NCBI RefSeq assembly: GCF_001592045.1
Contig: NZ_BCWB01000014.1
Span: 18,919 to 82,918 of the forward strand
Length of the DNA stretch: 64,000 nt
Source: Thermobifida fusca NBRC 14071 = JCM 3263
Lineage (GTDB): Bacteria; Actinomycetota; Actinomycetes; Streptosporangiales; Streptosporangiaceae
Direction: 5' to 3'
Part shown: positions 3,984 to 46,862 of the stretch, in pieces
Position numbering within the stretch: position 1 is the first letter of the stretch
Layout: each line of letters starts with the position of its first letter
Made by a program: the position numbers and the translations under genes
Notes under the pieces: model-generated
Database searches by the model: none
What the model was told of the DNA's origin: nothing
The model's input: the letters and a program-made list of their open reading frames with translations, nothing else

Positions 3984-4060
3984 CGGGGTAAGGCGGCATC
4001 AGACGCCATCGGACTGCCGCGGCACACAGCAGCGAGTACCGCACAGATCCACCACGTACT

Positions 4061-4175
4061 ACCTCCCATCCGGACTTTCACCGTCGGTACCGGAGTTTCA
4101 CCGGTTCCACCAGCCGATGGCTTCGACTGGGTCGCGGACTGTCACCGCCGGTTCGGACTTTCACCGACCCCGGAG
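4061..4175 (-). promoter_or_regulatory. FMN riboswitch (RFN element)
   Basis: Read on the minus strand, the region contains in order the RFN hallmarks GGTCGGTGAAAGTCCGAACC, GGCGGTGACAGTCCGCGACC, CCGGTGAAACTCCGG, CGACGGTGAAAGTCCGGATG and GGGAG, which form the closing stem and the symmetric arms of the FMN aptamer. It lies 110-220 bp upstream of ribE and should turn the rib operon down when FMN is abundant. Confidence 0.95.
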
Positions 4176-4270
4176 CACGCGTGTGTACTTCTTGCCCAAC
4201 AGTGTGCCACGGAGGGGTATTCCGCGGCCAGACCAGGGTGGGGAACCGAATCCCGCACTATTCACTCTTC

Positions 4271-40494: not shown

Positions 40495-40601
40495 CTGGCG
40501 CGCGCCGAATCCTCTCGACCGACCGTGATCGCTTTAGGCGTACATGTCGGACCTTTGGCTTCCCCAGTCACGGGCGACCTAGAATGCGGACGAAAGCGAA
40601 A

Positions 40602-40692
40602 ACCCGCGGGAGCCGGGGCGGAACCCGGCTGAGAGGGAGGCTGTCCGCCTCCGACCGCAGAACCTGATCCGGGTCATACCGGCGAAGGGAGT
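40602..40692 (+). promoter_or_regulatory. TPP riboswitch (THI element)
   Basis: The THI-box landmarks occur in order: GGGAGCC, GGCTGAGAGGGAGGC, GACCGCAGAACCTGATCC, GGGTCATACCGGCGAAGGGA. The 3' closing part (GGCGAAGGGAG) also supplies the ribosome-binding site of thiO, whose GTG is at 40701, so TPP binding probably blocks translation directly. Confidence 0.93.
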
Positions 40693-40700
40693 GGCGCGCC

Positions 40701-41872
40701 GTGCAGTTGCGCTCAGCCCCGGACGTCCTTGTCGTTGGGGGCGGACTTATTGGCCTGGTCACCGCATGGCGTGCTGCCCGCCTCGGGATGCGGGTGACCG
40801 TCGTGTCCGCGGAGAAGGCGGGCGCCGCGTCCGGGGTGGCGGCGGGCATGCTGACCCCCGCAACCGAAGCGGTGTTCGGGGAAGAGTCGCTGATCCGTCT
40901 GGGGCTGCGGTCCCAGCAGCGCTACCCCGATTTCATCGCCGAGCTCGCAGAAGACACCGACGTCGACCCGGGCTACCGCACCGAAGGCACCCTGCAGGTG
41001 GGGTTCGACCCGGACGACATGGCCACGCTCGCGGAACTGCAGCAGCTACGCGACCGTCTCGGTATCCGCACCGAACGGCTCACCTCACGCGAATGCCGCC
41101 GGCTCGAGCCGATGCTGGCTCCCACTGTGCGGGGCGGCTTCCTGGCCCCTGACGACCACTCGGTGGATCCGCGCCGCCTGTCTGAGGCGCTGCGTGCCGC
41201 CGCCGCTGCCCGCGGCGCACTGTTCGTCGCCGGGCACGTCCGGGAGGTGGTCGGGGGCGAGGACGCCGTGCGCGGCGTCGTGCTGGACAGCGGCGACACT
41301 CTCGACGCGGGCCAGGTGGTGCTCGCCGCGGGCGTGTGGAGCTCCGACATTGTCGGACTGCCCGAGGGAGTGGTGCCCCCGCTGCGCCCGGTCAAGGGGC
41401 AGCTGCTGCGGCTGCGCACCCCCGTGGGCGCCGAGCCGCTGGTGACCCGCACCGTGCGCGGCTTGGTCACCGGCTCCCCCGTCTACCTGGTGCCGCGGGC
41501 CGATGGCGAGGTGATCCTGGGGGCCACCCAGGAGGAGATGGGCTTCGACACCCGGTTGACCGTCGGCGGGGTCTGGGAGATGCTCCGCGACGCGCGCGAG
41601 CTCGTACCCGGGGTCACGGAACTGGAGATCGTCGAAACGTGCGTGGGGCTGCGCCCCGGGCCGCCGGACAACGAGCCGCTGCTGGGACCCACCCGTGTGC
41701 GCGGGCTGCACCTTGCGGTCGGCCACTACCGCCACGGGGTGCTGCTGGCCCCGGTGACCGGAGATGTCATGGCCGAAGTCTTGAGTACGGGGCGGCTGCC
41801 CGACTATGCGAGCCATCTCGCCGCAGACCGCTTCCTTCCCTCATCCTCACCATCGAAAGGGGTTGAAACATC

Positions 41873-44910: not shown

Positions 44911-44930
44911 GCGGGCCCGCTCAGTCCAGC
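44901..44930. terminator. 30-bp perfect palindrome containing two stop codons
   Basis: GCTGGACTGAGCGGG (44901-44915) is followed immediately by its exact reverse complement (44916-44930). Each half carries the codons Leu-Asp-stop of one of the two convergent genes (kinase and molybdopterin oxidoreductase). Likely terminator in both directions. Confidence 0.75.
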
Positions 44931-45523
44931 GGCGGCCCGTCCCCGGGGTCCTCCTGGTAGGAGTAGCGCTGCTCCAGCCACGGGTTGGCGAGGTTGTGGT
45001 AGCCGCGCTCCTCCCAGAAGCCGCGCCGGTCCGCGGTGAGGTATTCGATGGCGCGCACCCATTTCACGCTCTTCCAGCCGTAGCGGTGGGGGACGACGAG
45101 CCGCACCGGGTATCCGTGCTGGGGTTCCAGCGGCTTGCCGTCGCGGTGGGTGGCGAGGATGACGTCGGGACGCCGGAAGTCGTCGAGGGGCAGGTTGGCG
45201 CTGTAGCCGTACTCTGCCCAGACCATGACGTGGGTGGCGTCCTCGGCGGGGGGTGCGAGTTTCAGCACGGTGGAGGCGGCCACCCCGCGCCACCGCACGT
45301 CGAGCTTGGTGAATCTGGTCACACAGTGGAAGTCGGTGACCACGTCGACGCGCGGCAGGGTCTGGAACTCGGTCCAGTCCCACCGGTACTGCGTCCCGTC
45401 CGCTGTGGCTCCGTAGACCTGCAGATCCCAGCGGTGCGGGCGGAATTTCGGTACCGGGCCGTAGTGCACAGCAGGCCATTCGTTCGGCACGTACTGCCCT
45501 GGCGGCAGCCGTCGCTCAGACAA
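44921..45523 (-). CDS. Sulfite oxidase-like molybdopterin oxidoreductase
   Basis: A 200-residue protein of the sulfite-oxidase/MsrP-fold molybdopterin-binding group (YuiH-like, soluble, no signal peptide). The expected molybdenum-ligand cysteine lies in DFHCVTRFTKLDVRWRGV; GYSANLPLDD, HGYPVRLVVPHRYGWKSVKW are the conserved cofactor and substrate region. The physiological substrate is unknown; an electron-transfer partner is not encoded next to it. Converges on the kinase gene, 10 bp between stops. Confidence 0.88.
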   Translation of the reverse strand: MSERRLPPGQYVPNEWPAVHYGPVPKFRPHRWDLQVYGATADGTQYRWDWTEFQTLPRVDVVTDFHCVTRFTKLDVRWRGVAASTVLKLAPPAEDATHVMVWAEYGYSANLPLDDFRRPDVILATHRDGKPLEPQHGYPVRLVVPHRYGWKSVKWVRAIEYLTADRRGFWEERGYHNLANPWLEQRYSYQEDPGDGPPLD

Positions 45524-45620: not shown

Positions 45621-45626
45621 TATAGT
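45621..45626 (+). promoter_or_regulatory. aroF leader promoter (-10)
   Basis: TATAGT, a near-consensus -10, is 7 bases before the leader-peptide ATG at 45634, so the transcript probably starts at or within a base or two of that ATG. A -35 resembling TTCAGC sits at 45597-45602. Confidence 0.6.
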
Positions 45627-45633
45627 CGCTGCC

Positions 45634-45705
45634 ATGCAGCGGTACTTTTGGCGCTTTTACGGCTACCGGCCCACGGGCCCGGTCGCCCAACGAGCGCTGC
45701 GCTGA
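45634..45705 (+). CDS. Aromatic amino-acid-rich leader peptide (23 aa)
   Basis: ATG 45634 to TGA 45703-45705 encodes 23 residues starting MQRYFWRFYGYR and ending in VAQRALR. Six of residues 4-11 are aromatic (Tyr4, Phe5, Trp6, Phe8, Tyr9, Tyr11). It is followed 15 bp later by an intrinsic terminator and then aroF, the arrangement of ribosome-mediated attenuation: starvation for Tyr, Phe or Trp would stall the ribosome and disfavour the terminator. There is no Shine-Dalgarno and the -10 is 7 bp upstream, so the leader appears leaderless itself. Confidence 0.85.
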   Translation: MQRYFWRFYGYRPTGPVAQRALR

Positions 45706-45720
45706 CACGGACGACTTGGA

Positions 45721-45755
45721 AGCCCTGGGCCGAACGGTCCAGGGCTTTTCTGTTT
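45721..45755 (+). terminator. Attenuator terminator upstream of aroF
   Basis: AGCCCTGG (45721-45728) pairs with CCAGGGCT (45739-45746), followed by TTTTCTGTTTTT. GGCCC segments in the leader coding region (around 45669-45682) could pair with the GGGCC around 45727-45731 as a competing antiterminator. Confidence 0.85.
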
Positions 45756-45815
45756 TTCTGTCCAGGTCACCGCTGCTCCCACACTCTCCACAGCACCTGG
45801 TAAGGACAGCGTTCA

Positions 45816-46862
45816 ATGGTCATCGTTATGGCGCCCGACGCCCCTTCCGACACCATCGACTCCATCGTTGACCTCGTCGCCTCGGTGGGTGGTGAGGCCT
45901 ACGTGACCCGGGGGGTGAGCCGGACCATCATCGGCCTGGTAGGCGACGTGGAACGGTTCGAGACGCTTAATCTGCGTGCCCTCCCCGGCGTCGCCGACAT
46001 CCTGCGCATCTCCACTCCCTACAAGCTGGTCAGCCGGGAAAACACGACTGAGCGGTCGGTCGTGCAGGTTGCTGGGGTACCGATCGGCGGCGACCATATG
46101 ACACTCATCGCCGGTCCCTGCGCGGTGGAAACCCCGGAGCAGACTTTGGAAGCGGCGCTGATGGCGAAGCGTGCGGGTGCCGCGCTGCTGCGCGGCGGCG
46201 CCTACAAGCCGCGGACCTCCCCCTACGCGTTCCAGGGCCTGGGCGAGACCGGTCTGAAGATCCTGTCGGATGTGCGTGCGGAGACCGGCCTGCCGATTGT
46301 GACCGAAGTGGTGGACGCCTCCGACGTGGAGCTGGTCGCCTCCTACGCCGACATGCTGCAGATCGGCACCCGCAACATGCAGAACTTCGCGCTGCTGCAA
46401 GCCGTGGGCGACGCGGGCAAGCCGGTGCTGCTCAAACGCGGGATGAGCAGCACGATCGAGGAGTGGCTGATGGCCGCCGAGTACATTGCGCAGCGCGGCA
46501 ACTTGAACATCGTGCTGTGCGAGCGCGGCATCCGCACGTTCGAGAAAGCGACCCGTAACACGCTGGACGTGAGCGCGGTCGCCGTGGCGCAGCGGCTGTC
46601 GCACCTGCCCGTGGTGGTGGACCCGTCGCATTCGGGCGGCAAGCGGGAACTGGTGCTGCCGCTGTCGCGTGCGGCGATCGCGGTGGGCGCGGACGGCCTC
46701 ATCGTCGACGTGCACCCTGCTCCGGAGACGGCACTGTGCGACGGGCCGCAGGCGCTCACGCACGCAGACTTGGCCGAGCTGGCGCACGTGGTGACGGCGC
46801 TGCCGCCGCTCGTGGGCCGCACGCTCACGCCCAGCGTGGCGCAGGTGGGCGCCGGCGTGTAA
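45816..46862 (+). CDS. aroF: 3-deoxy-7-phosphoheptulonate (DAHP) synthase, type I beta
   Basis: A 348-residue enzyme for the first shikimate step, PEP plus erythrose 4-phosphate. Residues 1 to about 68 form an ACT-like ferredoxin-fold regulatory domain (VIVMAPDAPSDTIDSIVDLV... ISTPYKLVSRE), as in Thermotoga DAHP synthase, implying feedback inhibition by Tyr/Phe. The barrel has AGPCAVETPEQ, LLRGGAYKPRTSPYAFQG, QIGTRNMQNF, LLKRGM and VDPSHSGGKRELV with the metal ligands. AAGGA is 9 bases before ATG 45816. Expression is probably attenuated by the leader peptide at 45634-45705. Confidence 0.96.
   Translation: MVIVMAPDAPSDTIDSIVDLVASVGGEAYVTRGVSRTIIGLVGDVERFETLNLRALPGVADILRISTPYKLVSRENTTERSVVQVAGVPIGGDHMTLIAGPCAVETPEQTLEAALMAKRAGAALLRGGAYKPRTSPYAFQGLGETGLKILSDVRAETGLPIVTEVVDASDVELVASYADMLQIGTRNMQNFALLQAVGDAGKPVLLKRGMSSTIEEWLMAAEYIAQRGNLNIVLCERGIRTFEKATRNTLDVSAVAVAQRLSHLPVVVDPSHSGGKRELVLPLSRAAIAVGADGLIVDVHPAPETALCDGPQALTHADLAELAHVVTALPPLVGRTLTPSVAQVGAGV

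Follow-up and report, generated by a model that had tools for sequence, protein, structure and literature searches.

Analysis of the window, the whole 64-kb stretch of DNA studied here, revealed a short open reading frame (ORF) upstream of aroF. The aroF gene (positions 45816 to 46862, plus strand) encodes a type I DAHP synthase of 348 amino acids with an N-terminal ferredoxin-like domain (PF00793, PF18152, NCBIfam NF006421). The neighboring gene, which encodes a molybdopterin-domain protein (44921 to 45523; PF00174), runs in the direction opposite to aroF, so aroF has an upstream region of its own. The initial annotation had described a promoter, an ORF rich in aromatic codons, a GC hairpin with a T-rich tail, and aroF at this site, and all of these parts were found in place. 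On the plus strand, the -10 hexamer TATAGT (45621 to 45626) is followed after 7 nt by a 23-codon ORF (45634 to 45705; MQRYFWRFYGYRPTGPVAQRALR), which extends from the start codon ATG (45634 to 45636) to the stop codon TGA (45703 to 45705). Six aromatic residues lie among residues 4 to 11, as annotated. The stretch Y4, F5, W6, (R7), F8, and Y9 (45643 to 45660) comprises the putative control codons, an assignment drawn from the sequence, a masking calculation, and codon bias; the codon for Y11 is located at 45664 to 45666. Folding and a terminator scan predicted an intrinsic terminator hairpin of 14 pairs with a loop of 4 (45718 to 45749) and a T-rich tail, CTGTTTTTCT (45750 to 45759). This hairpin was the single terminator-like site between 45480 and 45830 (0.3 in shuffled sequences), and the leader RNA yielded a fold z score of -4.6 relative to shuffles, the folded segment beginning one base inside the ATG.

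A consensus scan for paired sigma-70 -35 and -10 elements returned no passing pair at the leader, where only the -10 element is recognizable. The -35 element is described as weakly conserved in Streptomyces lividans as well (PMC8079986). Searching Rfam at the gathering threshold revealed no family at the leader site; at E values up to 5, eight matches were obtained between 45580 and 45830, each far below its gathering score and none credible. The 23-amino-acid leader peptide matched no NCBIfam family at E values up to 1. Elsewhere in the window, Rfam detected an FMN riboswitch (4052 to 4182, minus strand) and a TPP riboswitch (40596 to 40708, plus strand).

Distribution and start of the aroF leader

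A detector was built that required TANNNT, a spacer of 6 to 8 nt, ATG or GTG, and an ORF of 12 to 32 codons with at least three aromatic residues in nine. Applied to both strands of the window, it gave a single match, the aroF leader. For comparison, 180 aroF-related loci were gathered from the best 80 named GTDB records, the genus, and a class sample of 246 genomes, 96 of which had an aroF match at an E value of 1e-60 or better. Eight loci were removed as chimeras, as paralogs, or for having too little upstream sequence, and five because their upstream regions were identical copies, which left 167 distinct regions. The detector matched 87 of these 167, a figure that gives no prevalence since the 80 best loci were picked by similarity. 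The reverse complements gave no match, and 50 dinucleotide-shuffled sets gave a mean of 0.14 and a maximum of 1. The hexamer was mostly positioned 7 nt from the leader start, as in the window.

The class sample contained the leader at 43 of 87 usable distinct loci, and by our reading the matches span 11 family labels (f1, f2, f8, f14, f20, f24, f26, f27, f28, f31, and f38). All 21 sampled aroF-bearing genomes of the window's own family carry it, and the named loci of the group with this arrangement include Nocardiopsis, Streptomonospora, Actinomadura, and Microbispora. No leader was found in the 20 aroF-bearing genomes of family f19 (loci within L151 to L174), 18 of which were tested, the other two having upstream regions identical to tested ones. 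This family is among the 80 of 167 regions without a detectable leader; therefore, aroF does not need the leader.

A terminator-like hairpin was present in 79 of the 87 leader-bearing regions and absent from 8 by the criteria used; many hairpin tails are poor in T (0 to 3 of 12). Limits on tail and gap reduced the 79 to 74, which represent 67 distinct peptides. Phe occurs in all 67 of these nonredundant leaders, Tyr in 66, and Trp in 58, and all three occur together in 57. One leader (L065) was removed as a likely false positive, so that 66 entered the fold, masking, pair-count, and codon-structure analyses. Judged by their motif, two Bacillota loci (L073 and L081) have T-box-like sequences ahead of aroF, apparently as a tandem pair.

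The position of the start codon points to a leaderless ORF. Among 129 aromatic short ORFs, the distance from TANNNT to the start was 7 nt in 64, 6 nt in 18, and 8 nt in 5, and any other distance occurred at most once. The -10 box (TANaNT) of the internal his promoters of Corynebacterium glutamicum is reported to lie 7 ± 1 nt upstream of the transcription start (PMC3896937). Pairing with the anti-Shine-Dalgarno sequence at the 67 loci averaged -1.6 kcal/mol at leader starts, -6.8 kcal/mol at aroF starts, and -3.4 kcal/mol at random sites; values below -5 were obtained for 9, 55, and 17 of 67 sites, respectively. At the locus in the window, the free energy was +0.8 at the leader start versus -5.8 at the aroF start. 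From the spacing, the weak pairing, and the conservation across families, the leader ORF is predicted to be leaderless, with its start at or beside the first transcribed base. The initial annotation had regarded leaderless initiation as an unusual version of the classical mechanism. This view is not supported: seven of the eight leader peptides listed for S. lividans are called leaderless (PMC8079986), and leaderless leader peptides are usual in actinobacteria. Of all S. lividans transcripts, 17% are given as leaderless (PMC8079986).

Alternative pairing of the leader RNA and proposed mechanism

Pairing and folding of the leader RNA predicted an antiterminator (45667 to 45732, plus strand) in which CGGCCCACGGGC (45667 to 45678, codons 12 to 15) pairs with GCCCTGGGCCG (45722 to 45732), a part of the terminator 5' arm. 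This complementarity has one bulge, and an inner helix surrounds the stop codon. The stop codon lies within the antiterminator because the 5' strand of the antiterminator is located inside the ORF, unlike in the E. coli attenuators. Folds of single sequences gave the same position of the stop codon for most lineages inspected, divergent ones included; a few (e.g., L023) differ.

Comparison of the 67 leaders with controls revealed that this pairing is stronger than in synonymous recodings. The duplex between the ORF and the terminator 5' arm averaged -22.0 kcal/mol, compared with -20.1 for synonymous recodings (standard deviation [SD], 0.3; best of 200 sets, -21.1) and -20.4 for swaps between species (SD, 0.3; best, -21.3), and in 51 of the 67 leaders it was stronger than the mean of their own recodings. 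The control duplex between the ORF and the terminator 3' arm scored -16.4 and was weaker than its recodings (-17.4). Folding of the antiterminator segment gave -35.4 for 66 leaders versus -29.9 for recodings (SD, 0.5), with 60 of 66 better than the mean of their own recodings; the window's leader reached a z score of -1.9.

The initial annotation had named a comparison of related aroF leaders for covarying hairpins as a check. In an alignment of 42 of the 67 leaders, which we chose as alignable with near-copies omitted, 90.8% of the cells pair versus 82.7% in shuffles, and the covariation score was 0.239 versus 0.107, a value reached in 0 of 500 shuffles. Registers shifted by 1 to 3 columns failed, with pairing of at most 57%. 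Two of five covariation measures were not clearly above shuffles (both-sided pairs, 35/500; further pair types, 498/500), and most of the both-sided changes separate two lineages. The opposed strands CGGCCC/GGGCCG of one lineage are replaced by GGACCC/GGGTCC in another, and the terminator 3' arm changes as well.

The effect of ribosome position on the antiterminator in the window was calculated by masking, assuming a ribosome front edge 12 nt ahead. The antiterminator retained -38.0 kcal/mol for stalls at codons 4 to 7, -35.8 kcal/mol at codon 8, -25.4 kcal/mol at codon 9, -19.5 kcal/mol at codon 11, -14.7 kcal/mol at codon 12, and -2.3 kcal/mol at the stop codon. Stalls at codons 13 to 17 would allow 5 to 8 weaker, rearranged pairs between the ORF and the arm. 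A ribosome at the stop codon would have its assumed front edge 2 nt short of the terminator. A stall at the initial aromatic codon left at least 6 pairs between the ORF and the arm in 66 of 66 leaders, but this count proves little because 86% of the synonymous recodings of these GC-rich leaders reach it too; the energies and the covariation discriminate. In these models, the antiterminator and the terminator exclude each other, and the antiterminator would be spared by stalls at the control codons.

Directly visible in the compared DNA are the ORF with its codons and the inverted repeats, as well as the conservation and covariation of these features. The region from 45634 to 45757 likely attenuates aroF transcription by a leaderless, ribosome-mediated mechanism, and the initial proposal of ribosome stalling on a leaderless leader ORF is supported by both comparison and prediction. 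For the start site, translation, stall, termination, and sensed amino acids, we infer the following course. Transcription would begin at the first base of the ATG or right next to it, and the bare 5' end would be loaded by a ribosome. Uncharged Phe, Trp, or Tyr tRNA would cause the ribosome to stall at codons 4 to 9; codons 12 to 16 would then be left wholly or partly free to pair with the terminator 5' arm, and aroF would be transcribed. With all three tRNAs charged, the ribosome would reach the stop codon inside the antiterminator, with its front edge about 2 nt short of the terminator; the terminator would fold, and the RNA would end at about 124 nt. A ribosome that has reached the stop codon would lie between the two arms of the antiterminator and cover neither, so its block on the antiterminator would be steric or kinetic and not a direct masking. 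Folding further predicts that an untranslated leader would pair with itself and that the terminator would still form.

Control codons and alternatives to tRNA sensing

The Phe and Tyr codons of the leaders are predominantly the T-ending ones. TTT accounts for 75 of 123 Phe codons (61%) and TAT for 62 of 104 Tyr codons (60%) in the 67 leaders; the aroF genes of these loci, as far as fetched, contain TTT at 0 of 289 and TAT at 4 of 267 (1.5%) of the respective codons. Third-base GC content of the other leader codons is mildly lower (0.84 versus 0.95). Frames of the window's own genome, chosen by a third-base GC content above 0.80 and with overlapping stretches counted repeatedly, gave TTT at 41 of 856 and TAT at 77 of 720. 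By order of the Phe and Tyr codons within the 67 leaders, T-ending codons make up 36 of 67 at the first, 52 of 66 at the second, 45 of 56 at the third, and 4 of 34 at the fourth. The window's leader has TTT at both of its Phe codons, within the stretch from 45646 to 45657, and TAT at none of its three Tyr codons.

For attenuator leaders, earlier work attributed codon bias to the selective charging of certain tRNA isoacceptors (PMC1183508). Among 52 tRNA matches, the genome has one tRNA-Phe (GAA), one tRNA-Tyr (GTA), and one tRNA-Trp (CCA), and with a single tRNA-Phe and a single tRNA-Tyr, selective isoacceptor charging cannot explain the TTT and TAT bias. Slower wobble decoding may underlie the choice of these codons. 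Why the bias is so extreme for Phe and Tyr, each read by a single tRNA in this genome, is a clean question. A substantial minority possibility is that T-ending codons keep the 5' RNA unstructured or pause RNA polymerase and do not serve to slow the ribosome. TATGGC recurs in many aligned leaders, and the folds of C-ending variants are slightly stronger, by a median of -0.35 kcal/mol per change in the leader plus 5' arm and 0.00 in the ORF by itself. Against this possibility, the effect on structure is small, and the bias drops at the fourth Phe or Tyr codon, which lies at the antiterminator in leaders of the window's type.

The leader may respond to any aromatic amino acid, as the initial annotation proposed, and Phe, Tyr, and Trp codons are all present. 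It may instead act by attenuation and yet sense only some aromatic amino acids, namely Phe and perhaps Trp, with the Tyr codons mostly passengers; this is a substantial minority possibility. The AroR leader of C. glutamicum, with its F-Y-F motif, is described as answering Phe and not Tyr (PMC11802643). Stalls at Y9 and Y11 would keep a partial and weakened antiterminator (-25.4 and -19.5 versus -38.0 kcal/mol), and the window's leader encodes Phe by the rare TTT throughout and Tyr by the common TAC. Of 20 close leaders, only that of this genome has Y4; the lineage groups behind these leaders were picked by peptide core, so identity inside the core is no evidence. Against such partial sensing stand the occurrence of Tyr in 66 of 67 leaders and the enrichment of TAT in them, 60% versus 1.5%.

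Attenuation by tRNA sensing also has to be weighed against an action of the translated peptide itself, through nascent-chain arrest or in trans like peTrpL. Trans-acting leader peptides are known (PMC7298713), and the peptides of close relatives have a core in common, RFYGYRP in one lineage and FWYGDGP in a second, but the codons of the shared YRP and DGP fall on the antiterminator strand, and across families the peptides vary widely while aromatic content and RNA pairing are kept, which makes this reading very improbable. Likewise very improbable is a constitutive terminator behind a leaderless small-protein gene, with aroF expressed from another promoter or by low read-through: the hairpin is strong (-25.2 kcal/mol), but its recurrent position upstream of aroF, the aromatic bias, and the complementarity of ORF and arm above synonymous controls speak against it.

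Known attenuators and related leaders before other genes

The trp, his, and pheA leaders of E. coli have a Shine-Dalgarno sequence; in contrast, none was seen at the window's leader, which also holds codons for three different amino acids. The DAHP synthase of the AroR system in C. glutamicum belongs to the E. coli-like type; the enzyme encoded in the window has a ferredoxin-like domain (PF18152). Neshat et al. (2014) are said to call their C. glutamicum attenuators leaderless. Attenuation of aroF by the aromatic leader peptide AroR is known in that organism (PMC4046766, PMC3890552, PMC11802643); the locus studied here shares with it an aromatic leader peptide that precedes a gene for DAHP synthase and, by prediction, transcription attenuation, for which a response to Phe is reported there. 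By its published description, AroR carries F-Y-F, with no Trp mentioned, whereas the window's leader carries F, W, and Y, and the comparison, made by description, is an analogy only. With the E. coli attenuators, the leader has in common putative control codons and a predicted, mutually exclusive antiterminator and U-tailed terminator (trp and his modeled in PMC1183508). The S. lividans leaders trpL1, trpL2, leuL1, leuL2, ilvL, thrL, and metL consist of a leaderless short ORF with control codons and one or more downstream hairpins, as predicted for the window's leader; they are supported by transcriptome sequencing, and the eight leaders listed include none for DAHP synthase or chorismate mutase (PMC8079986). 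The mycobacterial polycysteine ORFs (Canestrari et al. 2020, cited in PMC13236596) are leaderless sensing ORFs, as the window's ORF is predicted to be, but they sense cysteine, and the citing text speaks of translation attenuation. In a 2005 survey, the Actinobacteria yielded candidate structures at genes of Trp, Cys, and Leu metabolism and at ileS, and none upstream of other amino acid pathways (PMC1262725). The literature covered by our search contained no report of a chorismate mutase or Phe leader in Streptomyces and none of a DAHP synthase leader in actinobacteria outside Corynebacterium.

A covariance model built from aroF leaders (R1) gave full-length matches in genomes of two further families, f18 (label g29), which we take to be Streptomyces-like, and f37. 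Phe/Tyr leaders at 13 loci (L215 to L223, L232, L236, L242, and L243) precede a chorismate mutase gene in all 13 cases read, 11 called by motif and two by reading the protein; PF01817 matched both proteins tested. These leaders (e.g., MLTQTTFLFTYGNRPTGCHGRAA) contain Phe and Tyr in 13 of 13 and Trp in 0 of 13, compared with Trp in 58 of 67 aroF leaders (Fisher P = 1.6e-9, relatedness ignored). The presence of Phe and Tyr without Trp before chorismate mutase fits a role of the codons in sensing the products of the pathway. The leaders have a CCCCGGG-type terminator and a -10 element CATACT or CATAAT located 6 to 7 nt from the start, for which the hexamer rule was widened. TTT makes up 13 of 26 and TAT 11 of 18 of their Phe and Tyr codons; long flanking frames gave 1 of 143 and 3 of 88, figures that are lowered because these frames were selected by a third-base GC content above 0.88.

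A trpE-like gene in the window's own genome (L184, contig C5; 726-amino-acid frame; TIGR00564, 289.7 bits, below the model cutoff) has a leaderless-type leader, MRPALTFQQWWRRW, 7 nt downstream of TACACT. A hairpin whose tail is rich in T was also noted there by eye. The leaders before aroF carry F, W, and Y codons, those before chorismate mutase F and Y, and the one before the trpE-like gene WW; therefore, the codon set follows the pathway node. A broader reading is put forward tentatively and with somewhat less than even confidence: actinobacteria may possess modular leaderless aromatic attenuators in which the codon set tracks the pathway node, the control codons are deliberately rare, wobble-read UUU and UAU, and sensitivity is set by decoding speed on the leaderless-initiated ribosome. 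New here are the F/W/Y leader of aroF, the F/Y sister elements of chorismate mutase in two other families, and the rare control codons. Across a large group of actinobacteria, which is known for natural products, the aroF leader is a conserved and testable candidate for control of the first step in aromatic synthesis, and with the sister elements such control would reach chorismate mutase in two further families.

Other aromatic pathway genes of the same genome were also inspected. A second type I DAHP synthase gene (L181, C53:20584 to 21471; PF00793) has no TANNNT-led start upstream, no type II DAHP synthase was found in a check of the genome, and no CM_2 chorismate mutase was detected at an E value of 0.001, possibly because it is a diverged short protein. 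Weaker R1 matches in this genome were rejected as leaders; they are partial and cover the 3' part of the model around the terminator. R1 was also rejected as an aroF-specific model because it matches before chorismate mutase and at leaders with Thr runs: 20 further matches in the class comprised four Phe/Tyr leaders before chorismate mutase, eight Thr-run leaders, and eight sites without such a leader. The leaderless-type leaders with runs of Thr codons (L224 to L229, L234, and L237; e.g., MKRAAVTTTPECVPAR) have a CCCCGGG-type terminator. A threonyl-tRNA-synthetase-like frame (one tested against Pfam) follows six of the eight, an arrangement akin to thrL of S. lividans.
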